Below are positions 1,137 through 28,110 of a DNA stretch of 35,166 nt, piece by piece. The position numbers and the translations under genes were made by a program. Source of the DNA: Bacteroidaceae bacterium (lineage in GTDB: Bacteria; Bacteroidota; Bacteroidia; Bacteroidales; Bacteroidaceae); assembly GCA_017469685.1 (NCBI GenBank), contig JAFUFW010000054.1:1-35166 (forward strand). Reading direction: 5' to 3'. Under the pieces are notes generated by a model, which had not been told where the DNA came from, made no database searches, and saw only the letters and a program-made list of their open reading frames with translations. Numbering within the stretch: position 1 is the stretch's first letter; every line of letters starts with the position of its first letter.

Positions 1137-2039
1137 CTACTGAAATCCCCAGGCGTTACGAACAACTTGCGATTCAACTTGGTTTTCGATTTGGTCGGGT
1201 AGGTTGCAGAAGAAGTCAATGCCGGTGAGGCGCTCGAGCTCGTCGATGCTGACGATGTAGGGCGACAAGTTTTTCTCGTCTTCGTAGAACGAGCGGTGTT
1301 CCATCCAGAATCCGATGGCTTTGTAGCCGTTGTTGACGCTGCTGTTGTTCTTGCAAAGTACGGCCATGAAGAAATATTTGGGCACGAGCAGCTGCAAGGC
1401 TGTGCCTTTGCGCGCATATTCGAGAATCTGATCATCCCTGTCGATGGTGCCGCCCTTGCAGACGTATAGGGTGTCGCGGAAGTCGGCGGTGTTCCATGAG
1501 CGAACTTTCATCTCGAGGTTTGCCCAAATGCCGCCGTTGAAGCTGTAGAGTTGCGGCTGCATGTTGGAGTAGAGGAACGTCTGTCGGTTTGCCTCAAGTG
1601 AGTTCCAACGATCAGCCGAAGCTATGATGTGGCCTCGAGTGTAACCAGAGCCGCTGTAGTGGCTGCTTGTAGTGCGGTAAACTTCGGGAATGTCGTAGTC
1701 CTCAACGAAATTGTCCTCACGCTTGACGTAGCCTCCACTGTTTGAAGCGTCCCACCGGAACGCTGTCCATCGTTGCGCCTTCTTAGCTAAGCTCCATTCT
1801 ATGCAGTAGTTTACCTCACCTGAGGTCAGGCGCTTGACGAGTAACATATTCGCTACGCCCTCCGCCAGCCTCGGCATCTCAAGGCGTGAAGCCTCAGGAT
1901 ATTTACCATTCTTATTTGCATTTGTATTGATGGTGAGCGGGTCGCGCTCGTCGTCATCTGAAGAGCAGCTCCAGAATAGTGGAGCTGCTATACAGATGAG
2001 GGTAAGGGCAATAGCCCATTGGAAAGAGTGTCGTGTCAT
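1137..2039 (-). CDS. DNA/RNA non-specific endonuclease, lipoprotein
   Basis: The 300-residue protein has a lipoprotein signal (cysteine at residue 25 in LFWSC, followed by SSDDDE, typical of surface-exposed Bacteroidota lipoproteins). The body matches the beta-beta-alpha metal (NucA/NUC1) nuclease family: YTRGHIIASADR at 133-144 carries the catalytic His137 of the DRGH motif (Asp replaced by Thr, a variation I associate with Bacteroidales members), and SNMQPQ at 158-163 supplies the metal-binding Asn159. The family cuts single- and double-stranded DNA and RNA without sequence preference. It is the last gene of a minus-strand run with OB-fold, DUF5689 and TonB-receptor genes, which suggests it acts on the cell surface on captured nucleic acid. 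A pair of hairpins separates it from the gene upstream. Confidence 0.88.
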   Translation of the reverse strand: MTRHSFQWAIALTLICIAAPLFWSCSSDDDERDPLTINTNANKNGKYPEASRLEMPRLAEGVANMLLVKRLTSGEVNYCIEWSLAKKAQRWTAFRWDASNSGGYVKREDNFVEDYDIPEVYRTTSSHYSGSGYTRGHIIASADRWNSLEANRQTFLYSNMQPQLYSFNGGIWANLEMKVRSWNTADFRDTLYVCKGGTIDRDDQILEYARKGTALQLLVPKYFFMAVLCKNNSSVNNGYKAIGFWMEHRSFYEDEKNLSPYIVSIDELERLTGIDFFCNLPDQIENQVESQVVRNAWGFQ

Positions 2040-2055
2040 GAAGGGGGAGATAAGC

Positions 2056-2113
2056 CGGCGGGTGAACCGCCGAAGGCGGCACGCCTCTTTGTTGACTTGG
2101 AGGCCGTGCCGCC
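2056..2113 (-). other. Tandem hairpins in the spacer before the endonuclease gene
   Basis: Two GC-rich dyads lie between the OB-fold lipoprotein stop and the nuclease start. Arms 2056-2061 and 2067-2072 (cggcgg/ccgccg) enclose a 5-base loop. Arms 2075-2083 and 2105-2113 (ggcggcacg/cgtgccgcc) enclose 21 bases. Neither is followed by a T run on the minus strand, so a simple intrinsic terminator is unlikely. RNA processing, mRNA stabilisation or partial attenuation of the last gene are possible. Confidence 0.5.
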
Positions 2114-2126
2114 TATGTGGTATGGG

Positions 2127-3848
2127 TTATTTCTTTGTGATGGTGTAGTCGTCGATGAGGAAGCTCTTGCCAGGGGTCTTGGGATTCATCAGAACGAGGT
2201 TGAGGTTGGTCGAAGCGTCGAGGCTGAAAGTGTAGGTGACCTTGCTCCACCGGCCTGCGGGGATGTCGTTGGTGTAGTCACCATAGACGTAGCTGCCCAC
2301 GCTGCCGTCGTCCTTGATTGGCACGTAGCCGGGGCGTACGCTACCGCCGTCGGCTTCTGGCTTAATGTAGAACTCAACGGTGTAGTCACCAGCGGCAAGG
2401 GTGAGCTCTGTAGAGGCGAGGCGCTGGTTGCCGCTGGTTTTGCCCTCAACCTTCACGGAATAGCTGCCTCCGTGGGCGTCAGTACTCTGCGATAGGGCGC
2501 CTTTTGTGCTGGCAGTGTTGGCCGACATCCACTGTGCAGGTACGCCGTCAGCCCAGGTCTCGAAGCCACCATTGTTGAAGTCTGCGAGGGTGGTGTAGCC
2601 TCCGCTGGGGGTGGGTTCTTCGCCCGAGTTGCCGCCGTCGTCCTTTGTTGCCCCGTTGAGGCTGTAGATATAGGCTTTCTTGGAAGCCGTTTCGGGGGTG
2701 CCCTGATAGTTGGTTATCTGCCCGTAGATGATGACATCGTCACCGACGGCTATCTGTTTGTTGCCAGATTGCCAACTCTTGTTCTCGAGATAGTTGGCGC
2801 TATAGACTTGGAACTGATTTTGCGTTGAACCATCGTCAGAGATGAAGAATGTTGCCGTACCATGCTCTACGTCGAACTTATATTTTATTTCGGAAATCTT
2901 ACCTTTGATATAATACTTCTCGGCGCTGGTATTACCTGTCCCCAAATCGGTAGCTACTTTGTTGGCCGCAACGGCATTGTATGGGTCTGCAAGTGTGCCG
3001 CTGCCCTTGGCTTCGCCTGTAGGAGTGGGCGTTTCACCGCCTCCGTTCTCGAGGATTTCTACGGTAGCATTCTTAATTTCGGGCGTCACCTGTCCGCTGG
3101 AAGCGTTAACATACTTCATGAGCTGTCCAGTAATCTTGACCTTGCTGCCGACTTTGAATTCTGTCACGCCTTCGGGCAGGTTGGCGTAGTAGGCTTCGAA
3201 GACCTTACCGCCATCTTTGGTATCAGCCATCCAGAAAGTCTGCTGGTTGCGGCTTACGTTGCCAACAACTTCCGTTATGTAGCCTGTGACGGTGTAGGTG
3301 TCAGCTGATGTGCCTCCATCGGCGAGCGCTTTGGTGAGTTCAGCGGCTTCAGCGCAAGTCACTTCAATGCCGGTGGGCGTTTCTCCGCTACCGCCTCCTT
3401 CAAGTATTTCAACTGTGGCGTTCTTTATTTCAGCCGTCATGTTGCCAGTGTTGTTGTTTACGTACTTGGTGAGCTTGCCTGTGATTCTTACCTTGCTACC
3501 GGCCTTGAAGGCGGTGACGCCTTCGGGCAGGTTGGCCCAGTAGGCTTCGAAGACGCGACCACCGTTCTGTGTGTCGGCCATCCAGAAGGTTTGCTGGTTC
3601 TTGCTCACGTCACCGACAACCTCAGTGATGTAGCCTGTGATGGTGTATGTCTCGTTTGAGGATGCTCCGTCGGCAAGTGCTCGGGTGAGTTCTACAGCTT
3701 CGGCGCAAGTCACTTCGATGCCGGTGGGTGTAGGCGTTGTGCCGCCTTGATCAGTTGGGATGTTGTAGGGCTCGGGCACGTCCTCGCATGCTGTGAAGGT
3801 TCCGATGCCTAAAGCTGCGCAGAGCAGCAGTTTAAGATACTTTTTCAT
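2127..3848 (-). CDS. Surface lipoprotein with three OB-fold-like modules and a C-terminal carbohydrate-binding-like domain
   Basis: Starting at the MKKYLKLLLC methionine (the frame is open eight codons further upstream), the protein is 573 residues with a lipoprotein-type signal and cysteine at residue 21 (TFTAC-EDVPEPYN). Two near-identical modules of about 107 residues (about 44-150 and 158-264) follow, each starting IEVTCAEA-ELT-ALADG, with YTITGYITEVVG and RITGKLTKYV strands. They resemble the OB-fold-like DUF6359 type. A diverged third module is at about 282-400 (YYIKGKISEIKYKF...), and a jelly-roll-like domain ends in LIDDYTITKK. OB-folds commonly bind nucleic acid or sugars. No catalytic motif is seen. 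It is preceded by the DUF5689 lipoprotein gene and followed by an endonuclease gene, so nucleic-acid capture at the surface is a reasonable inference, not a demonstrated one. Confidence 0.8.
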   Translation of the reverse strand: MKKYLKLLLCAALGIGTFTACEDVPEPYNIPTDQGGTTPTPTGIEVTCAEAVELTRALADGASSNETYTITGYITEVVGDVSKNQQTFWMADTQNGGRVFEAYWANLPEGVTAFKAGSKVRITGKLTKYVNNNTGNMTAEIKNATVEILEGGGSGETPTGIEVTCAEAAELTKALADGGTSADTYTVTGYITEVVGNVSRNQQTFWMADTKDGGKVFEAYYANLPEGVTEFKVGSKVKITGQLMKYVNASSGQVTPEIKNATVEILENGGGETPTPTGEAKGSGTLADPYNAVAANKVATDLGTGNTSAEKYYIKGKISEIKYKFDVEHGTATFFISDDGSTQNQFQVYSANYLENKSWQSGNKQIAVGDDVIIYGQITNYQGTPETASKKAYIYSLNGATKDDGGNSGEEPTPSGGYTTLADFNNGGFETWADGVPAQWMSANTASTKGALSQSTDAHGGSYSVKVEGKTSGNQRLASTELTLAAGDYTVEFYIKPEADGGSVRPGYVPIKDDGSVGSYVYGDYTNDIPAGRWSKVTYTFSLDASTNLNLVLMNPKTPGKSFLIDDYTITKK

Positions 3849-3891
3849 TGTATATAGTGTTTTAAAATTCAATAATAGTTATATTAATTTT

Positions 3892-4749
3892 TCAATTCAC
3901 CTTAATGTCCTCTTCAGCACGGATGAGTATCTGCCACGTGTCGCGATAGCGTGTGGCGATGCCGTAGAGGGTTACGGGCGTGGAGGGGATTACCCACGAA
4001 GCGAAGTCAGCATAAGTGCTGGTGCGCAGCAGCAGCTTGTTCATCGACTGATTGTTGATAGAGTGGTGGACATAGCCGTTGGAGCTGCCGTTGTAGGTGA
4101 GGGTAGTGCCAGCCTTATACTCGGGGGCGATGGGGCTTCCGGCATCACCGATGACGACGTTCTTAAGGCATACGAGATGTCCGCAGTAGCGGGTCATGTC
4201 GTTCTGTGCAACGGAGAAGAAGTCAATGGTGTCAATCTGGCTCATGTCATGTGTGGGCAGTATTTTCACGTGCTCTTCCCATTTCTCGGTTGACATACGC
4301 CCAATGCTTCCATTGTACTCGTCGCCGAGCTGTGTCTGCTGGCCGTAGCCTCCGATGCAGAGATCCTTGAGGTCGATAAGCAGCTGCTGTCCAACGCTAA
4401 GGAAAGGGAAGAGACCAGTGCCGTTGATGCCAACGATCATGGCTCCGGTTGGGTCTTGCACAACGATTTGCTTATAAATGTTTCCGCCAATGTCGTTGCC
4501 GATGACGGTGCATACAAGCTGGCAGTCGTCAGCAATGCGCTGGAAGCTGCTGCCAGAGATGGCCGAGGCGTACTTGGTCTTGAGGTCGGCGATGGTCACC
4601 TGCTTCGATGCCTCATTAGTGATGCTGTTGTTGCCGTAAGGCGGATTGGTCATGTCAGGCGTGTCCCAGTCACCGTCGAAGCAAGAGGCTGTCATCATCG
4701 CCACGGCGATGATGAATGTAAAATGTAGGATATATGATATTTTACGCAT
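3892..4749 (-). CDS. DUF5689-type lipoprotein
   Basis: This 285-residue protein has a signal ending at a lipobox cysteine (MMTASC-FDGDWDTP, cysteine about residue 23), followed by acidic residues typical of export to the cell surface. The body (TIADLKTKYASA..., LVCTVIGNDIGGNIYKQIVVQDPTGAMIV split over residues about 50-105) matches the pattern of DUF5689 proteins of Bacteroidota, which have an OB-fold-like beta structure. No enzymatic motif is visible. It lies 42 bases ahead of the OB-fold lipoprotein and 65 bases after the TonB-dependent receptor on the same strand, so it probably forms part of the receptor's surface complex. Its partner role could be analogous to SusD, although it has no SusD-like sequence. 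Confidence 0.8.
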   Translation of the reverse strand: MRKISYILHFTFIIAVAMMTASCFDGDWDTPDMTNPPYGNNSITNEASKQVTIADLKTKYASAISGSSFQRIADDCQLVCTVIGNDIGGNIYKQIVVQDPTGAMIVGINGTGLFPFLSVGQQLLIDLKDLCIGGYGQQTQLGDEYNGSIGRMSTEKWEEHVKILPTHDMSQIDTIDFFSVAQNDMTRYCGHLVCLKNVVIGDAGSPIAPEYKAGTTLTYNGSSNGYVHHSINNQSMNKLLLRTSTYADFASWVIPSTPVTLYGIATRYRDTWQILIRAEEDIKVN

Positions 4750-4768
4750 GATAGCTAAAGTATTTGCA

Positions 4769-4796
4769 TTAAACTTTAAACCTTAAACTTTAAACT
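4769..4796 (+). repeat. Four tandem heptamers (TTAAACY)
   Basis: The spacer between the TonB-receptor gene and the DUF5689 gene contains ttaaact, ttaaacc, ttaaact, ttaaact in direct tandem. It is microsatellite-like and lies upstream of the DUF5689 start on the minus strand. Confidence 0.85.
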
Positions 4797-4814
4797 TCGC
4801 ACGAATGGCGAGCC

Positions 4815-7379
4815 TTAGAACCGGTAGTTGAGGTTGAGCATGAAGTTGAAGCCCTGCACGTAGTACTTCATTGGGTTCTTCTGGAAGTTGTAGGTGCGGA
4901 TGGTTGTCTTCTCGCCCGTAGTCTGGTCGGTGGTGTAGCTCGAACGGCTCTGTTCGTAACCGCCGCTGACGAGCTTGCGGTTGTTGAGGATGTTGGTGAG
5001 CATGAGGTTCACGCTGAGCGGGTGGTGGGCTATGCGGAACTGATGGCCTATGGAGCCGTCGAGCATGAAGCCTCCGTGTCCCTTTGTCTGTTCGGGTACG
5101 ATGAGCGACCCATCGTTGTCAACAGCTCCTGAACGGATGAGTGTGCTCTGGTAGCGCAGCGATGGCGAATAGCTGAGGTAGATGCGGTCGTAGTAGTTGC
5201 CCTTGAGGTTGAGATACCAACCCTTGATGTTGTAGTTCAGGCCAATGCTCCCGACTGTGAGCGGTGTGCTGGCTTCGCGCATACCTTTATTATATAATAT
5301 GTCTGTCGTGACGGTGCCTTGTGTTGATAGCAGGTAGCTGACGTCGGTGTTCTTCATGTACTTGGCATCAGCCATAGAACCGATGAGGTCTAGGGTAAGG
5401 CCTGAGATTATGTTGAAGCGCATGCCGAGCTCTACGCCGTAGTAGTTCTTCTCGATGCCTGTCATGCTGACGTAGGTGAAGGAGTTGACATCGTCGTAGT
5501 AGTAGTTCTGCCACTCGTTCATGCGTGTGCCGTGATTGAAGTAGGCAGTGAGGTTTGCGCGCATGAAGCTTGTAGTGAAGGCGTAGCCCAGTTCGGCGCT
5601 TACCATGTGCTCCACCTTGAGACCGTCGATGAAGTTGTTGTTCATCTCTGCTGCCTGGAAGGCGGAGCCTCCGTAGCTGCTGTAGGCCGTGGGCGCGTAC
5701 GTCATATATCCTACACCCAGACCGATGACGTGCCCCTTTCCGAGGTTGAGGTTAGAACCCATCTTAAAGCCCCCGTCGAGGAAGCGTGCCGTGCCGCTCT
5801 TGCCATAGGAGTTGTCGGCAAAAAGGCCGTTGCGCATCTTGCCGTCGCGCCACATCTGTGTGCCGCCGATCTTGGCGCTTACGAAGTTGTGGCTGATGCC
5901 GTAGTCGCGTGTGTACTGTGCCCAGGCGGTAGCTTTCTGCACGACGATGTTGAAGTCGTAGCCGAAGCGGTCGCCCTTAGTGACGGTGCCATTCGGGTTG
6001 TTGAGGTCATACTGCACACGGGGGTCGCTGCCAGCGTAGGTGCCGATGGCGTAGTTGTTGACGTTGTGCAGGTAGTTGGAGCCCATCATGTCGGAGATGG
6101 TCTGATAGTGCATACCTGTGTTTGATGCCAACTGCACGCCTGCCTGCAGGCGAGAGTCATTGTCGATAGACCAGTTGAGTGTCGAACCGAGGCTGATGGC
6201 GAGATGGTCGTTGTGGCGGGCGAGCATGTAGTAGGCTGCATCACCGCCGACTGCATTCATCTGTGAGTTAGCATAGTAGAGTTTGTCCCACTGAATCTGC
6301 CGGTTAGCCTGTGCTGCCGTCCAGTACTCGTAGCTCTCCTGCCAGGCGTTGATGTCGTTGTTTGAACCGTCGGTTAGACCCCATACATCGTAGTTGTATG
6401 ACGGGAAGTTCTTCCAGTAGTCGGGCTTCGGGTTCTGCGAGTTGTTGTACTGTAGGCGCGTGCCGCTGTACATGGCGTACTTTCCGTAGAGAGATGTCGT
6501 TAGCTTAAGGCGGTCGTTAATGTCAAAGTCCCATGTTAGCAGTGCCGAGGGCTCGTAGTTGTTCACAACGCGCGAATTACGTTTCTCGCCGTTCTGGTAG
6601 CCCCAGTAGGGGTTGTACAGGTAGTTGTTTGCGAGCCAGTAGGCCTCGTCGGTTGATGCTCCTTGCTGAGCGCGCTCAGTGGGGTTGCCCCATGTGGCAA
6701 GGTTGATGCTGTGGCGGTCGCCTATCAGCTTCTGGAGCGAGAGGAAATAGGCGAGAGAGTTGTAGAAGGTGCCCTCAACGGCTGCCGTCTCCATGTTTGC
6801 CCAGCGGTAGCCCACAGTGCCGAAGAAAGCCCAGCCGCTTTCCTTCAATCCAGTGCCGTAGGTGTACATGGCACGTGCCGTGTAGTTGCGGTTGAGCGCA
6901 GAGAGTGTAACCTTGTGGCCTGCGGCGTAGCTGCTGGCGCGGAAGTTATAGTTGTTTGACCCTCCGAGGGCAGCCATGCCGAAGCCGTTCGACTCGAAAG
7001 TCGCAGCGTAGTCGATGTGGTTGTTGGTAGCATCATTCATGCCGCCTACGGTGGAGTAGCTGAAGCGCCCGTTCTCGGCGCTGTTCACTTGCACACCGTT
7101 CATGTAGATGTCGTTGTACTTCTGGTCCAGAGCGCGGAACTTGAAGCGCATCGGGCTGAAGAGGTAACCAACATTGCTGGTGTACATGTTTGTGCTTGAA
7201 TTGATCTGAATGACGTCTGTCGTCACGTCAGCATCCTCGTCGAGCTGCGACTCGGTGAAGATAAACGAGGATGCCTCGTCCTTCAGAGCCTTCTCGGTTT
7301 CGCTCGTGGCCGGTTCTTGTGCCCATGTCGGCAGTGCCAGACATAGCAGCGCGGCCGCTGTTAGAAAGTCTTTTCTCAT
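4815..7379 (-). CDS. TonB-dependent receptor-like outer membrane protein
   Basis: Using the MRKDFLTAAALLCLALPTWA start gives a clear signal peptide and an 854-residue protein; an in-frame ATG 75 bases upstream would add an unlikely leader. There is no N-terminal carboxypeptidase-like domain, unlike SusC. A short plug-like region (ALDQKYNDIYMNGVQVN) leads into a long barrel rich in alternating aromatic strands and ends NFMLNLNYRF, with the terminal Phe usual for outer membrane barrels. It should import a ligand using TonB energy. The run of genes after it on the same strand encodes surface lipoproteins and a nuclease, and a secreted phosphodiesterase-family enzyme is divergent, so oligonucleotides, nucleosides or another phosphorylated product are plausible cargo. 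The ligand cannot be read from the sequence. Confidence 0.82.
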   Translation of the reverse strand: MRKDFLTAAALLCLALPTWAQEPATSETEKALKDEASSFIFTESQLDEDADVTTDVIQINSSTNMYTSNVGYLFSPMRFKFRALDQKYNDIYMNGVQVNSAENGRFSYSTVGGMNDATNNHIDYAATFESNGFGMAALGGSNNYNFRASSYAAGHKVTLSALNRNYTARAMYTYGTGLKESGWAFFGTVGYRWANMETAAVEGTFYNSLAYFLSLQKLIGDRHSINLATWGNPTERAQQGASTDEAYWLANNYLYNPYWGYQNGEKRNSRVVNNYEPSALLTWDFDINDRLKLTTSLYGKYAMYSGTRLQYNNSQNPKPDYWKNFPSYNYDVWGLTDGSNNDINAWQESYEYWTAAQANRQIQWDKLYYANSQMNAVGGDAAYYMLARHNDHLAISLGSTLNWSIDNDSRLQAGVQLASNTGMHYQTISDMMGSNYLHNVNNYAIGTYAGSDPRVQYDLNNPNGTVTKGDRFGYDFNIVVQKATAWAQYTRDYGISHNFVSAKIGGTQMWRDGKMRNGLFADNSYGKSGTARFLDGGFKMGSNLNLGKGHVIGLGVGYMTYAPTAYSSYGGSAFQAAEMNNNFIDGLKVEHMVSAELGYAFTTSFMRANLTAYFNHGTRMNEWQNYYYDDVNSFTYVSMTGIEKNYYGVELGMRFNIISGLTLDLIGSMADAKYMKNTDVSYLLSTQGTVTTDILYNKGMREASTPLTVGSIGLNYNIKGWYLNLKGNYYDRIYLSYSPSLRYQSTLIRSGAVDNDGSLIVPEQTKGHGGFMLDGSIGHQFRIAHHPLSVNLMLTNILNNRKLVSGGYEQSRSSYTTDQTTGEKTTIRTYNFQKNPMKYYVQGFNFMLNLNYRF

Positions 7380-7511
7380 TGGTAAAGTAACAAATTGTGG
7401 TATTTGGCTACAAAGAAAATAAAATATTCTTAAACAAAGAAAGGAAATCAACATTATTTTTAAAAGATGAAAAAAAAGCGAATTTTATGCTTATTCTTCT
7501 GCAAAAAGAAT

Positions 7512-7519
7512 TATCTTTG
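7512..7519 (+). promoter_or_regulatory. Bacteroidota -7 box upstream of the EEP-family gene
   Basis: The sequence tatctttg matches TAnnTTTG and lies 41 bases before the ATG at 7561, in the 181-base divergent gap with the TonB-receptor gene. The -33 element is weak (tatg near 7486). No equally good minus-strand box for the receptor was found in the gap. Confidence 0.6.
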
Positions 7520-7560
7520 CATCCCAAACAAAGAATGTATTTTTATTTACCAGAAAGAAT

Positions 7561-8604
7561 ATGATTAAACGACTCTCATTAATTGTCTGTTGCGCGCTGC
7601 TGAGCCTCACGTCGACGGCTCAAGAAGGGCGCGTAGCCATGTACAGTATTGGCTTTTACAACCTTGAGAACTTGTTCGACACGCAACACGACGAGGGCAA
7701 GAACGACTATGAATTCCTGCCCGACGGTGCGAACAAATGGTCTGATATGAAGTATCAGCATAAATTAAAGAATCTCGCGCGCGTGCTGTCTGAGATGGGT
7801 ACCGACCGTATCCCCTCCGGATGTGCAGCCATCGGCGTCAGCGAGGTTGAGAATGCCCACTGCCTGAGCGACCTCTGCGCACAGGAGCCTCTCGCCGCTC
7901 GTGGCTTCAAGTTCTGCCACATCGAAGGCCCCGACCAGCGTGGCGTTGACTGCGGCCTGCTCTACAATCCGAGTTTCTTCCATCCCGCCAAGGTGTGGCT
8001 GCAGCCTTACGTGCTGAAAAACCGTGATGCCCGCCCCACCCGTGGCTTCCTCACCGTTCAGGGGACGCTTGCCGGCGACAGTGTCACCATCATCGTGTGC
8101 CACTGGCCGAGCCGTTTCACTGGCAAGCAGGCTCGCGTATGGGCCGGCCAGCAGGTAAAGGCAGAGAAGGACAGCATCGTGCGTGCCAACCCGCAGATGA
8201 AGATTCTCATCATGGGTGACATGAATGATGATCCCTTCGACGAGTCGATGGCTAAGGGGCTCGGCGCGCGTCGTAAGCTCGCTGACGTGAAGACGCCCAT
8301 GGATCTGTTTAATCCATGGTGGCAGATTCTTCTCGATGGCAAAGGCACACTCAAGTACGACGGCAAATGGAATCTCTTCGATCAGATAGTGATGAGCCAC
8401 AGTCTCACTCGTGGCACAAAGGTTAAAGACTACACATCGCTCACCTTCTACAAGGCTGAGATTTTCCGCCGCGACTATCTATTCCAGGACAGCGGCCGTT
8501 ATAAAGGTAGTCCTCTTCGCACTCATGCCTCGGGTGTATGGCTCGACGGCTACAGCGATCACCTGCCAGTAGTAACCTATCATGTGAAGAGGGTTGGGAT
8601 TTGA
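7561..8604 (+). CDS. Secreted endonuclease/exonuclease/phosphatase family protein
   Basis: The 347-residue protein has a signal peptide (cleavage near STAQ-EG, about residue 21). It shows the full EEP metal site: Asn34 in FYNLENLF, Glu95 in GVSEVEN, His181 in CHWPSR, Asp220 and Asn222 in MGDMNDDP, and Asp333-His334 in YSDHLPV. The family hydrolyses phosphodiester or phosphomonoester bonds in DNA, RNA, sphingomyelin or inositol phosphates. The HWPSR and GDMNDDP forms are those of extracellular nuclease-like Bacteroidota members. It is divergent from the TonB-receptor/nuclease run, which supports a joint role in breaking down external nucleic acid. A phosphatase of another organic phosphate remains possible. 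Confidence 0.88.
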   Translation: MIKRLSLIVCCALLSLTSTAQEGRVAMYSIGFYNLENLFDTQHDEGKNDYEFLPDGANKWSDMKYQHKLKNLARVLSEMGTDRIPSGCAAIGVSEVENAHCLSDLCAQEPLAARGFKFCHIEGPDQRGVDCGLLYNPSFFHPAKVWLQPYVLKNRDARPTRGFLTVQGTLAGDSVTIIVCHWPSRFTGKQARVWAGQQVKAEKDSIVRANPQMKILIMGDMNDDPFDESMAKGLGARRKLADVKTPMDLFNPWWQILLDGKGTLKYDGKWNLFDQIVMSHSLTRGTKVKDYTSLTFYKAEIFRRDYLFQDSGRYKGSPLRTHASGVWLDGYSDHLPVVTYHVKRVGI

Positions 8605-10211: not shown

Positions 10212-11696
10212 ATGAAAATTACTCGCCTGTTTGCGGCCTCAATGGCTTTGATGTGTGCAGTGGGTTCTTATGCCGCTGCCGACGACGCTAATGATCGTCA
10301 CCAACTATCGTTCGCTCAGGCCATAGCCGAGCCTGCTGACAATATCAGCGTCACCCGTCGTCCTGCTCCCGAAGAGCGCCTGTTCCGCTCCAACACTATC
10401 GAGAAGAAGATTGCTGAAGTGAAGAAGCAATTGAAGAAAGCTCCCTATCTGGCATGGATGTTCGAGAACTGCTTTCCCAACACCCTCGACACTACTGTTC
10501 ACTACAGCACAACCGACGATGGCGATGACGACACTTTTGTCTACACAGGTGACATCCACGCCATGTGGCTCCGCGACTCGGGCGCACAGGTGTGGCCTTA
10601 CGTACAGTTTGCCAAGACGGATGAGGGCATCCGCAAGATGGTGCGCGGCACGATCCTGCGCCAGCTCAAGCTAATCTGCATCGATCCTTACGCCAATGCC
10701 TTCAACGCAGGCCCCACGGGCAGCGAGTGGGAGAGCGACCTCACGCAGATGAATCCTTACCTGCACGAGCGTAAGTACGAGATTGATTCGCTCTGCTATC
10801 CGTTGCGCCTGGCCTACGAGTATTGGCTCGTCACGGGCGACGACTCGATCTTCGGCGACGTGTGGAAGGAAGCCGTGACGAAGATCCTACGCACTTTCCG
10901 CGAGCAACAGCGCAAGGATGGCCATGGACCCTATCGCTTCCAGCGCAAGACCGCTGCTCAGTACGACACAATGAGCCACAGCGGCTACGGCAACCCAGTG
11001 AAGCCCTGCGGCCTCATCTGTTCGGCTTTCCGCCCGAGCGACGACTGCACGGTGCTTCTTTACCTCATCCCCTCCAACTTCATGGCCGTTTCTAACCTCC
11101 GCAAGGCTGCCGACGTGCTCACGCGCGTGAACCATAATACTACTCTTGCAGCCGAGTGCACATCGCTTGCAGACGAGGTAGAGGCAGCCCTGAAGCAGTA
11201 TGCCGTCAAGGATCATCCCAAGTATGGCAAGATCTATGCTTTCGAGGTCGACGGCTTCGGCAACCAGCTCTGCATGGACGATGCCAATGTTCCCTCGCTG
11301 CTGGCCATGGCTTATCTCGGCGACGTGCCCGCTGACGACCCCATCTATCAGAACACCCGCCGCTTCGTTTGGAGTGAGGATAATCCTTATTTCTATAAGG
11401 GCAAGGCTGGCGAAGGCATTGGTGGTCCTCACATTGGCTATGACATGGTGTGGCCGATGTCCATCATGATGCGCGCTTTCACCTCGACCGATGATGCCGA
11501 AATCCGCGACTGTCTGCAAATGCTTGTTGACACTGATGCTGGCACGGGCTTCATCCACGAGTCGTTCAACAAGGACAATGCCTCGCAGTACACCCGCTCG
11601 TGGTTTGCCTGGCAAAACACTCTCTTTGGTGAGCTGATCATCAAACTGCTGGCCGACGGCAAGAAGGACCTGCTGAATTCAATACAGAAGAATTAG
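10212..11696 (+). CDS. GH125 exo-alpha-1,6-mannosidase
   Basis: The 494-residue protein has a signal peptide (MKITRLFAASMALMCAVGSYA). The family signature DIHAMWLRDSGAQVWPY is at 114-130. The best candidates for the catalytic acid and base are Asp192 in KYEIDSLCYP and Glu450 in FIHESFN, by analogy with the Asp/Glu pair known for GH125. The family removes non-reducing-end alpha-1,6-linked mannose by inversion, acting on yeast-type mannan or N-glycan-derived chains, probably in the periplasm. It is followed after 96 bases by a GH97 gene with no terminator seen between them, so they are probably cotranscribed from the promoter at 10093. It complements the GH76 endo-mannanase at 18396-19736. Confidence 0.93.
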   Translation: MKITRLFAASMALMCAVGSYAAADDANDRHQLSFAQAIAEPADNISVTRRPAPEERLFRSNTIEKKIAEVKKQLKKAPYLAWMFENCFPNTLDTTVHYSTTDDGDDDTFVYTGDIHAMWLRDSGAQVWPYVQFAKTDEGIRKMVRGTILRQLKLICIDPYANAFNAGPTGSEWESDLTQMNPYLHERKYEIDSLCYPLRLAYEYWLVTGDDSIFGDVWKEAVTKILRTFREQQRKDGHGPYRFQRKTAAQYDTMSHSGYGNPVKPCGLICSAFRPSDDCTVLLYLIPSNFMAVSNLRKAADVLTRVNHNTTLAAECTSLADEVEAALKQYAVKDHPKYGKIYAFEVDGFGNQLCMDDANVPSLLAMAYLGDVPADDPIYQNTRRFVWSEDNPYFYKGKAGEGIGGPHIGYDMVWPMSIMMRAFTSTDDAEIRDCLQMLVDTDAGTGFIHESFNKDNASQYTRSWFAWQNTLFGELIIKLLADGKKDLLNSIQKN

Positions 11697-11731
11697 ACTT
11701 CTTTGACTTCTTTAATTTCTTTAACTTCCCT
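11696..11731 (+). repeat. Period-9 repeat at the GH125 stop codon
   Basis: The units gacttcttt, gacttcttt, aatttcttt, aacttccct start on the last base of the GH125 TAG stop and run into the spacer before GH97. Nothing else is evident in the 96-base gap. Confidence 0.75.
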
Positions 11732-11792
11732 GATAACCACTTACCCCATCTTAACTTACCAAATGCAGTTTTAATTAATCCTAAATTTCTCT

Positions 11793-13736
11793 ATGAAAAC
11801 TTCAAGAATTCTCCTTGCCCTGACACTGTCGCTGTTTGCCTTCAGCGCCAAGGCCGCATCAAAGATTACTTCGCCCGACGGGCACATCTCCGTTGAAGTG
11901 AACACTACGACGGGGCATCTTGGCTACACCGTCAGCCGCGATGGCCGCGTCGTCTATTCCTTCCGCGACATTGCCCTCTCGCTCAATAAAACGAGCTTCC
12001 CCGTAGGGAAGATTAAGGTCGGAAAGACCGTCCACGTCAAAAACAGCTTCAAGCCTGCCGTCCCCCTGAAGTTCTCGACTGTCAATGAGGACTACAAAGA
12101 AGCCACTATCAGTATAGGTTCAGGGGCTTCGTTCTTGCTTCGCGTTATGAACAATGGCGTTGCTCACCGCTTCGTGCTTGCACAGAAAGGTGACGTTGAG
12201 GTCTACGACGAGCCCTTCCGCTTCGTGCCTGCTGAGGGTTTCAAGGCTCATCGCCAGACGGCCCCCAACAATTTCAATACCTCCTTCGAGGAAGCTTACC
12301 GCCACGAGACGCTGGCCGAATGGAACGCTTCCGACCGTAAGATGACCACCCTGCCGCTGCTTCTCTCAGCTGACGACGACACACAGCTGCTCGTGGGCCA
12401 AAGCGATGTTGACGACTATCCGCACCAGTTCCTCTACACCGACGGTGAGGCCATCGTGCCAATGTACCCGAAGGCTCCGCTGAAGTGGGAACCTCGCGGC
12501 GACCGCAGCGAGACCATCACCGAAGAGGCTAAGTACATCGCCAAGACTTCCGGGCGCCGCGCCCTGCCATGGCGTTGGGTGGCAGTGACCGACTCCAAGG
12601 GCATCATCGAGCAGACGCTGCCAGTGCAGCTTGCCCGTCGCAGCGTGCTGAAGGATGAGAGCTGGATACATCCCGGACAGTTCTCATGGGAATGGTGGAA
12701 CGGAGCAGCACCCTTCGGCCCAGACGTTGACTTCCGCTCGGGCTGCAACTACGAGACATATTGCTACTTTGCCGACTTCGCTGCGAAGTTTGGCATCGAC
12801 TATATCCTTCTCGACGAGGGCTGGGCCAAGTCGACCCGCGACCCCTTCCATGGCAATGACAACCTGCGCCTGCCCGACCTCATCAAGTATTGCAATGCCA
12901 AGGGCGTGAAGATTGTGCTGTGGCTGCCATGGCTGACAGTGGAGCAGAACTTCGACCAGCTCTTCAAAACTTATGCTGAATGGGGCATTCCGGCCGTGAA
13001 GATTGATTTCATGGACCATGCAGACCAGTGGATGGTCAACTTCTTTAAGCGCGTCGTGCAGGAAGCTGCCAAGTACAAGATTATCGTCGATTTCCATGGA
13101 GCCTTCACTCCTGCCGGTCTGGAGTATGAATATCCCAACCTCGTCAGCTACGAAGGCGTGCGTGGCCTTGAGCAGATGAGCGGCTGTCGGCCTGAGAATA
13201 CTACATACATTCCATTTATCCGCAACGCCGTGGGCGCTGCCGACTTCACGCCTGGCGGCATGAACAATATGCAGCCTGACCAGTATCGTGCCAGTCGTCC
13301 CAACAGCGGAGCCATGGGTACGCGCTGCTTCCAGATGGCTCTCTATGTAGTGCTCGAGAGCGGTGTGCAGATGCTGGCTGACAACCCGACCCGTTACTAC
13401 CAGAACGAGGACTGCACCCGCTACATCGCCAGCGTGCCTACCACTTGGGATGAGACTCGTGCCCTCGAGGCTAAAGCCGGAGAATACGTCGTCGTGGCTA
13501 AGCGCAAAGGTTCGAAATGGTTCGTCGGTGGCATTACCAATGGCGAAGAACGCGACTTCCGCCTGAAGCTCGACTTCCTCGGTGCCGGCCAGCACAAGCT
13601 GACTGCCTTCAAGGATGGACTCAACGCCGGTTATCAGGCTATGCATTACAACAAACTGGAGAGGGATGTCAACAACTCGACAGAGATTGACGTTCACATG
13701 GCTAAGAACGGCGGCTGGGCTGCCGTGATTGAGTAA
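11793..13736 (+). CDS. GH97 glycoside hydrolase (alpha-galactosidase/alpha-glucosidase family)
   Basis: The 647-residue protein has a signal peptide (MKTSRILLALTLSLFAFSAKA). An N-terminal beta-sandwich is followed by a TIM barrel (WNGAAPFGPDVD... to about 520) and a small C-terminal beta domain. VKIDFMDHADQW at 402-413 places Asp405 where retaining GH97 members have their nucleophile, and SYEGVRG with Glu454 is the likely acid/base. SusB-type inverting alpha-glucosidases lack that Asp, so the retaining, alpha-galactosidase-like subgroup is the better guess, though substrate is not fixed by sequence. It lies in tandem with GH125 and ends at a strong terminator facing the convergent GH78 gene. 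Confidence 0.92.
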   Translation: MKTSRILLALTLSLFAFSAKAASKITSPDGHISVEVNTTTGHLGYTVSRDGRVVYSFRDIALSLNKTSFPVGKIKVGKTVHVKNSFKPAVPLKFSTVNEDYKEATISIGSGASFLLRVMNNGVAHRFVLAQKGDVEVYDEPFRFVPAEGFKAHRQTAPNNFNTSFEEAYRHETLAEWNASDRKMTTLPLLLSADDDTQLLVGQSDVDDYPHQFLYTDGEAIVPMYPKAPLKWEPRGDRSETITEEAKYIAKTSGRRALPWRWVAVTDSKGIIEQTLPVQLARRSVLKDESWIHPGQFSWEWWNGAAPFGPDVDFRSGCNYETYCYFADFAAKFGIDYILLDEGWAKSTRDPFHGNDNLRLPDLIKYCNAKGVKIVLWLPWLTVEQNFDQLFKTYAEWGIPAVKIDFMDHADQWMVNFFKRVVQEAAKYKIIVDFHGAFTPAGLEYEYPNLVSYEGVRGLEQMSGCRPENTTYIPFIRNAVGAADFTPGGMNNMQPDQYRASRPNSGAMGTRCFQMALYVVLESGVQMLADNPTRYYQNEDCTRYIASVPTTWDETRALEAKAGEYVVVAKRKGSKWFVGGITNGEERDFRLKLDFLGAGQHKLTAFKDGLNAGYQAMHYNKLERDVNNSTEIDVHMAKNGGWAAVIE

Positions 13737-13760
13737 GCCACCAGAAGTTGAATCATAAAT

Positions 13761-13801
13761 AATCCCACCATCGAGAGATTGCTCGGTGGCGGGATTCTTT
13801 T
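13761..13801 (+). terminator. Intrinsic terminator after GH97
   Basis: The sequence aatcccaccatcgag, a short loop, then ctcggtggcgggatt forms a long, slightly mismatched stem followed by ctttt. It lies 25 bases after the GH97 stop. The stem is near-symmetric and could also serve the convergent GH78 gene. Confidence 0.8.
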
Positions 13802-13828
13802 GTGTAAATGCCTTATAGCCAGTGAGGA

Positions 13829-16450
13829 TTATTTCAATGTCAGCACTCGCTTGTACGTTCCTGCGCTGTATTCGTAAGCTGTAGTCTCACCTGGCAGCGT
13901 GACAGAAGCTGTTGCTCCCTTCGGGATGGTGAAGCGCCATGTCCAGCGGTCGCCGTCGAAGTTCCATGAACTCTTGATGAGGCCGGCGGCTGAACGGTAT
14001 TCGGCTTTAAGACCGCCAAGGCGCTTGTCGGGAATCGGGCGCATGATGATGTGTCGGAAACCAGGCTTTGAGGGGTCGGAGGCAATGCCTGCCGCCGTCT
14101 GCCAAAGCCATTGTCCGACGCAACCGTATGCGTAGTGGTTGAATGAGTTCATGCCACGTGGCCCCATTCCTTTGTCGCGCATATAGCTGTTCCATCGTTC
14201 CCAGATGGTTGTAGCTCCCTGGTCTACGCTATAGAGCCAGCTTGGGTTCTTGCGTTGGAAGAGTAGGGTATAGGCAATGTCCGCCATGCCGTTGTCTGTG
14301 AGTGTAGGCATGAGGATGCTCGTACCGAGGAAACCAGTCTGCAGGCAGTTGTCGTGCTGACGGAAATTCTCTCTCAAGCGTGCAATCATATTGTCGCGGG
14401 CCTGTCCGTCCACGAGTCTGTTGCGCAAGGCGAAGAGAGCCGGCGTCTGCATAGTGTTGAGGATCTCGCATTTGAAGGTACCGTCGGTATTGAGGAAACG
14501 CTGGCGCAGGTAAGCCCGTGCGTTGGCTGCCATCTGGCGGTATGGCTGGGCTTCGCGCCCAGTAGCAGCTGCCATGTCGGCCATCATAGCGGCGTCAATT
14601 GCCCAGTAGCTTGCGCCGAGGTAGCTCCAATAGGTTATGGCTTCGGGCTTGGGGCCATTGCTGAATGCTCCTCCTCCGCAGCTCTCGAGGGGCTCGTAGC
14701 TGAGCCAGTCGGCCCACTGGTAGTTGCCGTTCTCGCCGCTCAGTGCTTCGTGGTCGTAACAATTCTCGTTGACGTGTTGCATGAAGCGGTCCATTGCTTC
14801 CCAGTTCTGGTTGATGATGTCGATGTCAGCAAACTGTTTCCATACGGTCCACGGCACAATGATGCCGGCATCAGACCATCCGAGACGCATCCGCCCGGCA
14901 TCGCCGTACTGGCCGAAAGGAGCAACGCCGGTGAAGGCTCCTGTCTCGGTCTGCGTGTCGCCGAGGTCGCGCATCCATTTGTGGAAGAAGTTGCGAGTGT
15001 CGGCAAAGAAGGTTCCTGTCTCGGTGAAGACCTGCGTGTCGGCCGTCCAGCCCTGCCGCTCGTTGCGCTGTGGGCAGTCGGTGGGCACAGAGAGATAGTT
15101 GGAACGCATGCCCCAGACGATGTTTGAGATGAGCTGGTTGATGTCCTTGTTGCCCGTCGTGATTGAGCCTGTCTCTGTCTCCAGCGATATTGATGTCACG
15201 GGAATGGAGTATAGGCGCTTGATGTGCACCTCGGCGGTGGCGGTGATGCTGGCGTAGCGGTAGCCGAAGAAGGTGTGCGTGGGGACGAAAGTCTCGTAGC
15301 CCTCGCTGCCTGCGAAGGTGTAGACGGCGCGCATGTGAACCTCGTGGGTGCGAAGGTTCAAGCGGTGGACACTGCCCTCGGGGCCATCCATGCCCCGGCT
15401 CTTAGCGCCGTTGCCGTCGTTGAGCAGTTCGCCCGGCAGGCAGGTCAGCACGGTGCCTTGCGGAGCCTTGAAAACGAAGGCTGGCACGGCTGCAGCGTTT
15501 TGCCCGAAATCCACGACGAGTGTCTCGCCTGGGCGGACTACCATCTCTTGTCCGGCACCGAAATGGCTGACGACGTTCACTTGCCCGAAAGCCTCCTTGC
15601 TGTCGTTGCTTACGCCCTGCCATGTGTAGGCTTCAACGGGAGTGAGAGCCAAGTCGTGGCGGAGGTAGACTTCTGCGCCTTCCGACGGCAGAATCTCGCC
15701 TTTGAATTCAGTATTGACCTCAGGCTTGGCAAAAGCCTCGGTAGCGTCGAATGGCTTAGCCACACGTGCATCAAAGGCCTCGCCCTCTTGAATACCGGTG
15801 AGCTTGACGGGGCCTGCTATGGCGGCACGCCAGTCATCAGGATATGTGCCTATGACGGTGATGCCGTGTTTGTAAACAAGCATCAGCACGCCTCGGAAGG
15901 CACATTTGTGACCCAGCATTCCGTCGTGGCCAGCAGGCGTCGTGATTTTGTCGGCCCACCAGCCCGGCGACACCTGCACAGCGAGCTGGTTCTCAGCTCC
16001 AGCCTTGCAGTTGAAGGCGTCGGTAATGTCGTAGGTGAATGAGCGTTTCGTGTGTTCGGGGTGTGTGAAGCCGGGGCGCAGCACCTCGTCGCCTACTGGC
16101 AGCCCATTGACATAGAGGTCGTAGACGCCAAGGCCTGTCGTCATCCAAAGAGCTTGCTGCACTTTGTCGGTGTTCTTTACAGTAGAGACGAACCAGCTGG
16201 CTCCCTCGGCAGCGCAGGCGTTGTCGCTCTCATTCACCTTTCCATTTATTACGGGCGCATCGGCGACGGAAAGCCAGTAGGAGGTTTGCCAGGCGCCGTT
16301 GTTCAAGGCCGTAATGCGTTTGCCTACGGAAGCAGGCAGCAGCTGTCTGGTTGACTTGTCTCCTGCAAAGGAGCCCGAGGCCAATACTAAGGCAGCTGTC
16401 AAAGCAGTGGCGCGGGGGTTAAAGTGCGCGAAATCTTTCATCCTTGACAT
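13829..16450 (-). CDS. GH78 alpha-L-rhamnosidase
   Basis: This 873-residue secreted protein (signal-like start ATALTAALVLASGSFAG; a second ATG three codons in is also possible) has N-terminal beta-sandwich regions, with VYDLYVNGLPVGDEVLRPGFT typical of the rhamnosidase N domain split over about 105-130. The (alpha/alpha)6 barrel follows. The signature DCPQRNERQGWTAD at 458-471 contains the conserved acidic residues used by GH78 enzymes, and the C-terminal domain ends SAGTYKRVLTLK. The enzyme removes terminal alpha-L-rhamnose from plant or microbial polysaccharides by inversion. It is convergent with GH97 and divergent from the AICAR formyltransferase, with its own -7 box at 16488. There is no adjacent SusCD pair. 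Confidence 0.93.
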   Translation of the reverse strand: MSRMKDFAHFNPRATALTAALVLASGSFAGDKSTRQLLPASVGKRITALNNGAWQTSYWLSVADAPVINGKVNESDNACAAEGASWFVSTVKNTDKVQQALWMTTGLGVYDLYVNGLPVGDEVLRPGFTHPEHTKRSFTYDITDAFNCKAGAENQLAVQVSPGWWADKITTPAGHDGMLGHKCAFRGVLMLVYKHGITVIGTYPDDWRAAIAGPVKLTGIQEGEAFDARVAKPFDATEAFAKPEVNTEFKGEILPSEGAEVYLRHDLALTPVEAYTWQGVSNDSKEAFGQVNVVSHFGAGQEMVVRPGETLVVDFGQNAAAVPAFVFKAPQGTVLTCLPGELLNDGNGAKSRGMDGPEGSVHRLNLRTHEVHMRAVYTFAGSEGYETFVPTHTFFGYRYASITATAEVHIKRLYSIPVTSISLETETGSITTGNKDINQLISNIVWGMRSNYLSVPTDCPQRNERQGWTADTQVFTETGTFFADTRNFFHKWMRDLGDTQTETGAFTGVAPFGQYGDAGRMRLGWSDAGIIVPWTVWKQFADIDIINQNWEAMDRFMQHVNENCYDHEALSGENGNYQWADWLSYEPLESCGGGAFSNGPKPEAITYWSYLGASYWAIDAAMMADMAAATGREAQPYRQMAANARAYLRQRFLNTDGTFKCEILNTMQTPALFALRNRLVDGQARDNMIARLRENFRQHDNCLQTGFLGTSILMPTLTDNGMADIAYTLLFQRKNPSWLYSVDQGATTIWERWNSYMRDKGMGPRGMNSFNHYAYGCVGQWLWQTAAGIASDPSKPGFRHIIMRPIPDKRLGGLKAEYRSAAGLIKSSWNFDGDRWTWRFTIPKGATASVTLPGETTAYEYSAGTYKRVLTLK

Positions 16451-18395: not shown

Positions 18396-19736
18396 TTATT
18401 TGATAAGAACTTTGCCCCCTCCAACAATATAGAATCCTCGCTGTAGTTGGTGTTCTGTAGCGGTGGTTACGTGACGACCAGAGAGGTCGTAGATGTCAGT
18501 ATCGTTAATACTGCTTCCATTCTCTATCAGCGTCGCATCAATCGCATCTTCTTCACCAGGTTCAGTAAGCGCCAACGCCATGCGTGCCACGTTCTCCATG
18601 AGCGATGCTCCGCTGACCATGGCGCCCATCGACGGCACCTGGGTGTCATCTACTGGTTCGCCCCAATAGTAGTTGCAGTACATCCTTGGATACTTATCAT
18701 GCTTGAGGTTATCCCAAAGCGTGTCCGCATTCTTCTGTAGGAATGTCACCATACGCTTGCGGTAAGTCGCTGTGGCTTCATCGTCAAGCACGTAGTTTAC
18801 GAGATAAGGGATAAGCACGGCTTTGAATATACTCTGATCCATGCTCGACCCCTCGTCGCGCAGTAGCCCGTTGTGAATGCAGCGGCCGTTGGTCACGGCG
18901 TAGTTGAGCACTCTGCTTGCCATCGTCATATATGCCCGTTCGCCTGTGAGATGATATAGCCTACGGGTAGCCTCGCCAAACGTGCCTTGGGTGTAGGTCA
19001 ACGGCGGTTCCTCCACGCGCCCGTCGTTGTTGAGTTTAGTCCGCATTATGTTGTCCAGATAGTCGTACAAGTCCTTGGCCGTCTGTAGGTAGGACTCGTC
19101 GCTGTAGCGTTCATATAGCTTAGCAGCCACGAGGCATCCTGGAGCGTTCGTGCAGGCGTTGGGTCCCGAGCCGTCGTCCTTCCAAGGCAGCGAGAAGAAG
19201 CCGTCGCTGCCGCGGCTGCCTCGAGGCAGGATATAGCGGTCGAACACCGTGCGCGCCATGTCGGCGTAAGTCTCCACCTCCAGAGCCTCGCTCATGTGTA
19301 GCAGCGTGAGGCATATCCAGCACATATCGTCGGTGAACTCGTTGTAGAAGCCAGTGTCATCGCCGCTTTTGTGGTACCAATTGTTGGCATGGTTGCGGAA
19401 CCATCGCTCCATAGTGGTCTTATAACTGCTTAAGCGGCTGTCGTCGCTGCCCTTCAGACGTTCGTATGCATAAATGATGACATCCAAAGCGTGCGCTTGC
19501 TGCCAATAGATGGTGCTGGACGCGCTGGAGGCATTTGCATAGGTGCGTGGTATAGCGTAGAATGTGCCCTTGGATGTGTTGAGAAACAGATTCGTCAGCA
19601 CATATTCCAGCGAATCGGCCCGCCCCGAGTAGTCGCGCTCGATAAGCGTAGCCAAAGGGTTGGATTGAGCACGTAGCGGCATCGATGATGCTGCTACGGT
19701 TACAGCGAGGCAGAGGAAATAAAGAATTCTTTTCAT
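18396..19736 (-). CDS. GH76 endo-alpha-1,6-mannanase with C-terminal sorting-like tail
   Basis: The 446-residue secreted enzyme has a signal peptide (MKRILYFLCLAVTVAASSMPLRAQ). The (alpha/alpha)6 barrel carries the paired aspartates of GH76, Asp136-Asp137 in NEFTDDMCW, plus aromatic residues such as WQQAHALD and NYYWGEP expected along the cleft. GH76 cleaves internal alpha-1,6-mannosidic bonds of yeast-type mannan backbones by retention. The end (DIYDLSGRHV...GFYIVGGGKVLIK) resembles the C-terminal sorting domains of Bacteroidota secreted proteins, so the enzyme may be displayed or secreted. It is 14 bases downstream of the 62-residue peptide gene and behind a large binding protein on the same strand, so a three-gene transcript is likely. 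Confidence 0.9.
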   Translation of the reverse strand: MKRILYFLCLAVTVAASSMPLRAQSNPLATLIERDYSGRADSLEYVLTNLFLNTSKGTFYAIPRTYANASSASSTIYWQQAHALDVIIYAYERLKGSDDSRLSSYKTTMERWFRNHANNWYHKSGDDTGFYNEFTDDMCWICLTLLHMSEALEVETYADMARTVFDRYILPRGSRGSDGFFSLPWKDDGSGPNACTNAPGCLVAAKLYERYSDESYLQTAKDLYDYLDNIMRTKLNNDGRVEEPPLTYTQGTFGEATRRLYHLTGERAYMTMASRVLNYAVTNGRCIHNGLLRDEGSSMDQSIFKAVLIPYLVNYVLDDEATATYRKRMVTFLQKNADTLWDNLKHDKYPRMYCNYYWGEPVDDTQVPSMGAMVSGASLMENVARMALALTEPGEEDAIDATLIENGSSINDTDIYDLSGRHVTTATEHQLQRGFYIVGGGKVLIK

Positions 19737-25015: not shown

Positions 25016-25096
25016 ACGAGGTTCTTAGTTATCTTGCTCTGCAGGAAATCAGCTGAAGGCTGGAGGCAGAACGAGGTTTCGAGGTTGTGGGTTTTG

Positions 25097-28023: not shown

Positions 28024-28025
28024 TG

Positions 28026-28110
28026 TTTCAATTATCAATATTTCAATGTTCAATTTTCAATATTCAATATTCAATATTCAATGTTCAATTTTCAACTTTC
28101 AACTTTCAAC
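28026..28110 (+). repeat. Heptamer array (NTTCAAY) spanning the btuC-btuF junction
   Basis: Ten heptamers in perfect register from 28041 to 28110: tttcaat, gttcaat, tttcaat, attcaat three times, gttcaat, tttcaac three times. Two more (tttcaat, tatcaat) lie at 28026-28039 offset by one base. The btuC TGA stop (28106-28108) lies inside the last unit, and the btuF ATG is two bases beyond the other end. Confidence 0.92.

Follow-up and report, generated by a model that had tools for sequence, protein, structure and literature searches.

A conserved five-gene locus in Bacteroidales is a probable outer-membrane gate for the capture, trimming and import of DNA

To our knowledge, the route that DNA takes across the outer membrane of Bacteroidota is not settled. 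The closest described system comes from Riemerella anatipestifer, in which a transposon screen followed by markerless deletions identified RA0C_RS04915 (a barrel with a CarboxypepD_reg domain) and RA0C_RS04920 (DUF5689 plus DUF5017); each gene was essential for natural transformation, which fell below detection in either deletion mutant, compared with 5.4e-5 in the wild type (PMC8459023). The same study reports homologues of RS04915 in Flavobacteriaceae only, with the genus Flavobacterium possessing the pair (PMC8459023). Parallels of other kinds are the SusC/SusD polysaccharide utilisation loci, which place a TonB receptor, a lipoprotein and secreted hydrolases in a single locus; BT3563 of Bacteroides thetaiotaomicron, a secreted extracellular DNase of a gut member of Bacteroidales (PMC11078008); and the DNA-degradation clusters of Candidatus Izemoplasmataceae, in which extracellular nuclease and transport genes are co-located and which were proposed to serve for eating DNA (PMC8289736). 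Here, we analysed a five-gene locus at positions 1137-8604 of contig JAFUFW010000054.1 from a Bacteroidaceae bacterium (GCA_017469685.1); the whole stretch of 35,166 nucleotides that was analysed is referred to as the window. The locus encodes a TonB-dependent-receptor-like barrel, a DUF5689 lipoprotein, a lipoprotein with three OB-fold modules, a non-specific endonuclease (NUC) lipoprotein and a secreted endonuclease/exonuclease/phosphatase (EEP), and it is probably a gate through which DNA is captured, trimmed and imported at the outer membrane.

Sequence comparison indicates that the receptor and DUF5689 genes form a core that corresponds to the RA0C_RS04915/RS04920 pair, a correspondence that was missed in the original prediction, made from the letters of the window alone. 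With genomes from other orders of the same class standing in for R. anatipestifer, the best match to the window receptor (28-31% identity) adjoined a gene matching the model NF052645 (lipo_M949_1556) in 10 of 10 genomes, including two in which one small gene, itself matching NF052645, separated receptor and lipoprotein. Six of the ten had a second receptor match, which scored far lower. In the reciprocal search, the receptor of one other-order locus (L103) retrieved the window gene as its only match in the host genome. Two of the stand-in genomes carry NF052645 above its cut-off and are therefore inferred to be close to Riemerella. M949_1556 is an R. anatipestifer locus tag, and its equation with RA0C_RS04920 is our assumption. 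The window thus shares with the Riemerella pair a receptor-like barrel followed by a DUF5689 lipoprotein, together with reciprocal best matches to other-order homologues; unlike the pair, it adds the triple-OB lipoprotein and the NUC nuclease.

The window receptor had no Pfam match of its own. In an alignment of 16 members including the window, a TonB Plug was found in seven and a CarboxypepD_reg-like domain in ten, and a profile search of the PDB retrieved nothing beyond CarboxypepD-like domains at the N-terminus and weak matches to OprC (E ~0.3). The open reading frame runs to 7454, and the likely start is a Met conserved in the alignment at about 7379. A tree was built from 45 receptors; having been rooted on two paralogues, it is a weak test of their separation. 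In it, the other-order receptors fell into two groups, one of them among Bacteroidales sequences; they do not form one clade, and the tree therefore does not simply follow taxonomy.

The original prediction had described three OB-fold-like modules in the larger lipoprotein, and this description was borne out. Modules 1 and 2 are identical at 85 of 110 positions, a close duplication, and module 3, which aligns with both, matched the Pfam OB fold (PF01336) at residues 322-393. The same nucleic-acid-binding domain was matched by 12 of the 15 members of the protein's close alignment, window included, and three of the 15 matched CBM_4_9 at the C-terminus. The PDB profile search gave nothing significant for this protein (E 0.38-0.69, for a colicin, two single-stranded DNA-binding proteins and a galactanase). 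Its likely start is the ATG near 3848, a correction to 3872. The DUF5689 protein has 285 aa and a single Pfam domain, and its Cys23 was invariant in an alignment of 44 sequences. It resembles the N-terminal part of NF052645 (model positions 5-275 of 457, E 1e-22). Neither lipoprotein had a Pfam match to SusD, as anticipated in the proposal that lipoproteins stand in place of SusD here. A C-terminal domain common to the OB lipoprotein and the other-order DUF5689 proteins was sought in ten loci and gave no match.

DUF5689 was also observed away from the locus. The host genome has a second, weak match (G000:C72:21184-21678) in a frame of about 664-669 aa; it was considered as a second copy of the locus and rejected, as none of the five families matched at E 1e-3 in the surrounding 19 kb. 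In L040 (14120-19001), the gene after a paralogous receptor encodes 687 aa and matches DUF5689 weakly, and in at least five order genomes (G051, G073, G096, G103 and G131) weak receptor matches adjoin DUF5689 matches in frames of about 725-873 aa. Such a paralogous receptor and large DUF5689 protein are candidates for a second SusCD-like system.

Both nucleases retain their active sites. EEP positions N34, E36, E95, H181, D220, N222, D333 and H334, which we take to be metal or catalytic site residues, showed a conservation of 1.00 (rounded) across 137 aligned sequences, so that the complete metal site described in the original prediction held up at all eight positions. In NUC, G136-H137, N168 and E176 were likewise conserved at 1.00 across 58 aligned sequences, with H137, N168 and E176 presumably catalytic. 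The nearest solved chains to NUC were nuclease structures (2o3b, 1zm8) and EXOG. Its lipobox is followed by the acidic stretch CSSDDDE, which we read as a surface-export signal.

In the window's family, at least 33 of 50 genomes have NUC no more than 10 kb from the receptor; with a limit of 8 kb, it was seen in seven of 68 loci from the window's order and in none of 23 loci from other orders. From this distribution, the nucleases look like lineage-specific additions to the receptor-DUF5689 core; a multi-OB lipoprotein, too, is a common addition in the window's family. Arrangements differ: in the window's clade NUC typically lies downstream of the receptor with EEP divergent, whereas in four loci (L052, L121, L066 and L059) NUC and EEP are both found upstream of the receptor and share its strand. 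Homologues of Endonuclease I, Pfam-checked in L053 only, occur within 8 kb of the receptor in nine of 68 order loci and one of 23 other-order loci; L049, an order locus, has both Endonuclease I and NUC, and in L048 the Endonuclease I gene is on the opposite strand about 7 kb away. That unrelated nucleases have been recruited beside the receptor argues that nucleic acid is the substrate.

Conservation was examined in two collections, and for neighbouring genes the denominators below are loci with enough contig room in every case. The first, the 80-best set, holds the best 80 of at least 588 confirmed receptor loci in named genomes; it is biased to close relatives and leaves out B. thetaiotaomicron, Porphyromonas gingivalis and Riemerella. 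The second was picked by DUF5689/NF052645 and comprises 70 loci of the window's order plus 25 taken from a sample of the phylum; the other-order counts leave out one locus from the window's own family (L121). In the 80-best set, a DUF5689/OB lipoprotein lay within 500 bases downstream of the receptor in 77 of 77 loci (70 from the count of open reading frames and seven recovered where an overlapping frame had masked the lipoprotein), a second lipoprotein within 7 kb in 44 of 65, a divergent EEP in 61 of 70 and a downstream NUC in 46 of 65, while EEP, lipoprotein and NUC occurred all together in 35 of 57. Its hosts include the cultured species Prevotella denticola, P. veroralis, P. amnii, Segatella baroniae, Hoylesella timonensis and Paraprevotella clara.

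The second collection contained a homologous receptor in 68 of 70 order loci and 24 of 25 phylum-sample loci; receptor and lipoprotein were at most 500 bases apart in 65/66 order loci and 23/23 other-order loci. EEP was divergent in 37 of 55 order loci (three more had it on the same strand) and in 21 of 23 other-order loci, a further likeness between the window and the Riemerella-type arrangement. At the genome level, 70 of the 149 genomes sampled from the window's order contain the receptor, with scores above 800 bits in 68 of them and, in the other two, a partial match at 631 and one at 445; RS04915 homologues had been reported from Flavobacteriaceae only (PMC8459023). The clustering of the five genes is not chance, and the expectation that the set is conserved together in relatives agrees with these co-occurrence counts. 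The literature searched contained no description of the five-gene locus, with bioRxiv and most subscription papers outside its reach. One locus labelled Eggerthellaceae bacterium UBA5906 (L219) carries Prevotella-type receptor, EEP and DUF5689 genes and is probably mis-binned or mis-named.

Compared with SusC/SusD loci, the window has lipoproteins of OB/DUF5689 type, and neither a glycoside hydrolase nor a regulator is encoded by the five genes or by the two that flank them. By its gene content, the locus would work like a SusCD system but is not one. Candidatus Izemoplasmataceae have no outer membrane. They also belong to a different phylum, and no receptor/OB lipoprotein pair is described for their clusters in the available text (PMC8289736).

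We propose the following working model for a DNA gate. The OB lipoprotein, and perhaps the DUF5689 lipoprotein, would bind nucleic acid on the cell surface and act as a lid over the receptor; NUC and EEP would cut long DNA or RNA and may remove phosphate; and TonB would energise passage through the barrel into the periplasm. In a host with a reduced ComEC, the DNA would most likely feed the supply of nucleotides, phosphate and nitrogen, with recombination as a possible, secondary use. The system for binding, cutting and importing nucleic acid envisaged in the original prediction is retained in this model, given a conserved locus, the absence of SusD and the intact NUC and EEP active-site residues; its description as unrelated to anything named is not. 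More tentatively, it is quite possible that the route of DNA import in Bacteroidota is a TonB-dependent SusCD-like gate (a receptor with a DUF5689/OB lid) rather than a type IV pilus, and that this one gate serves transformation in Riemerella and relatives and, once equipped with additional OB modules plus NUC or Endonuclease I, the use of DNA as food by Prevotella of the gut and its relatives. The analysis ties a transformation pair that was published but left unexplained to a locus whose receptor occurs in 70 of the 149 sampled order genomes and whose hosts in the 80-best set include cultured species of Prevotella, Segatella, Hoylesella and Paraprevotella. The locus is a concrete candidate for the means by which gut commensals take in or feed on extracellular DNA, and bears on gene exchange in the gut and on the phosphate and nucleotide economy of the rumen.

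Several points weigh against the DNA-gate reading. We know of no precedent for TonB-driven import of DNA. The window receptor lacks the N-terminal CarboxypepD_reg domain of its Riemerella counterpart and shares only about 29% identity with the other-order receptors, and the orthology search used genomes standing in for R. anatipestifer. The DUF5689 match to NF052645 (80.6 bits) is far under the cut-off of 475, the protein lacks the fused DUF5017/choice-of-anchor domain, it had no PDB relative in the profile search, and its profile comparison with the OB lipoproteins aligned the signal peptides only, leaving an OB nature of DUF5689 unsupported. The functional data drawn on here come from Riemerella, where an indirect effect could account for the lost transformation. 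The test applied to R. columbina showed no competence in F. johnsoniae, although its genus has the pair; the pair alone is therefore insufficient, or the conditions were wrong. Finally, among order genomes full-length ComEC was found in 55 of 68 with the locus and 56 of 74 without it (p 0.54); full length here means at least 640 aa, a threshold chosen after the lengths had been seen, absent ComEC is counted as short unless stated, and seven order genomes were removed because their ComEC lay at a contig end.

In the family sample, where contig ends were unchecked, the corresponding counts were 30 of 50 with the locus and 14 of 51 without it (Fisher p 0.0013, relatedness uncorrected). Lowering the cut-off to 600 aa gave p 0.0006 in the family and 0.83 in the order (0.19 with absent ComEC left out), and raising it to 680 aa gave 0.18 in the order (0.029 with absent left out); at 640 aa, leaving out absent ComEC gave 0.097 in the order. 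When order loci without NUC were compared with locus-free genomes, full-length ComEC was present in 52/60 versus 56/74 (p 0.13), or 52/53 versus 56/71 with absent left out (p 0.002). An association of the locus with full ComEC, which reached significance in the family and failed to do so in the order, was accordingly rejected as a general rule. We likewise rejected the idea that NUC marks loss of ComEC and hence nutrition: among order loci in genomes with ComEC detected and uncut by contig ends, 3/8 with NUC and 52/53 without it had full-length ComEC (p 5e-5), but the family gave 20/32 and 10/16 (p 1.0). DprA, found in 142 of 149 order genomes including the host, is near-universal and was set aside as uninformative. 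From locus-tag spacing in the R. anatipestifer study, comEC was expected beside the locus in relatives of Riemerella; in three such loci the neighbours read, by eye, as superoxide dismutase and Rho, and the idea was dropped.

In the host, the channel of ComEC is retained, but the alignment to the model misses the first 171 positions and is weak over the C-terminal part, and Pfam recognised only the Competence domain. Among six sampled genomes of the window's genus, the ComEC frame has 618 aa in the window genome and 401, 408, 359 and 436 aa in four others, with no match in the sixth; contig ends were checked for the window genome only. The locus is retained in three of these six genomes, each time with NUC. 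As short ComEC proteins are functional in Helicobacter, length alone does not prove loss. In seven order genomes the receptor is present and ComEC was not detected (G034 and G148, which share a genus, and G002, G050, G114, G124 and G141); these offer natural test cases for a use other than transformation.

Such ComEC reduction across the genus favours the foremost rival, a locus purely for nutritional use of nucleic acids, as in the original prediction, and unrelated to transformation. Intact NUC and EEP sites speak for it, as does the setting of EEP: in 28 of 61 loci of the 80-best set, EEP has a uridine-kinase-family gene close by on its own strand, with a small gene between the two in 16 of the 28 (a representative had no Pfam match) and most gaps under 80 bases, a context that fits nucleotide feeding. 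Against it, the core pair has its counterparts in genes that transformation requires, and family members with the locus more often have a full-length ComEC, so we regard this account as possible but rather doubtful. The nutritional use itself fits the uridine-kinase context, whereas its purely nutritional form is unsupported; since the core matches the Riemerella transformation genes, taking in long DNA for recombination is a use with at least as good a basis. Transformation of R. columbina rose two-fold without phosphate and five-fold without peptone, which joins the feeding and transformation uses. Whether DNA entering through the proposed gate is eaten, recombined or both, we lean towards nutrition in this host, because its ComEC is reduced and a uridine-kinase-family gene lies near EEP in related loci.

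At the other pole, the locus could be a dedicated natural-transformation machine that supplies ComEC with long DNA, in which the nucleases generate ends or the single strand. The Riemerella deletions, which abolish transformation, the wide occurrence of DprA and the presence of ComEC in the host, though reduced, would all suit it, but donor DNA would be lost to a non-specific nuclease sitting at the gate, the host ComEC is a channel domain only in Pfam, and ComEC went undetected in the seven locus-bearing genomes listed above; we consider it unlikely. It is improbable that the locus serves to clear extracellular DNA or control biofilms (matrix DNA, neutrophil traps) with import as an incidental effect: NUC is a predicted lipoprotein with a surface-export-like signal, but the near-invariant receptor-lipoprotein pair would go unexplained, and loci outside the window's family mostly lack NUC. 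The BT3563 DNase, needed for bile-dependent biofilm (PMC11078008), may be a parallel for such a role. Least probable of all is an importer of another phosphoester or of a glycan, with EEP acting on inositol phosphates or lipids, since the many substrates of EEP enzymes and the CBM_4_9-like C-terminus of some OB lipoproteins are set against two unrelated nucleases beside the receptor and the Riemerella phenotype.

All five genes sit where the original prediction had placed them, and four of them, all but the receptor, matched the corresponding Pfam families (Table 1). Intergenic gaps within the minus-strand run are 19-87 bases.

Table 1. Features of the five-gene locus, with positions in the window and the basis of each assignment
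Feature	Positions	Strand	Basis
Non-specific DNA/RNA endonuclease (NUC) lipoprotein	1137..2039	-	PF01223 Endonuclease_NS, E 4.5e-46
Lipoprotein, three OB-fold modules and C-terminal beta-sandwich-like region	2127..3872	-	PF01336, E 3.4e-10
DUF5689 lipoprotein	3892..4749	-	PF18942, E 5e-55
TonB-dependent-receptor-like outer-membrane barrel, putative RA0C_RS04915-type orthologue	4815..7454	-	alignment, reciprocal best matches
Divergent intergenic region	7380..7560	.	Bacteroidales-type promoter word TATCTTTGC pointing to EEP
Secreted endonuclease/exonuclease/phosphatase (EEP)	7561..8604	+	PF19580 Exo_endo_phos_3, E 2.8e-92; signal peptide

Promoter-type words such as CAAAGATA were enriched in 66 homologous intergenic regions, and we read words of the TATCTTTGC/CAAAGATA type as a -7 promoter motif. 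The locus is flanked by a CMD/cupin gene on one side and an aldolase gene on the other, the latter occupying the place where the uridine-kinase-family gene follows EEP in relatives. The host assembly is 2.83 Mb and 87% complete. Among the best 80 of the at least 588 loci, the closest receptors come from rumen Bacteroidaceae bacterium genomes (best-segment identity 85% in water buffalo and 80% in goat), and we therefore infer that the host is an uncultured rumen member of Bacteroidaceae/Prevotellaceae.

Beyond the aldolase gene, genes for a GH125 alpha-mannosidase, a GH97 enzyme and an alpha-L-rhamnosidase are grouped at 10212-16450, and a GH76 match lies at 18396-19736; these are possibly a separate glycan-degrading set. 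Further along, positions 23762-29122 hold a cobalamin-related cluster that includes a CobB/CobQ-like glutamine amidotransferase, a fused CbiJ-CbiD, a periplasmic binding protein and a FecCD permease.

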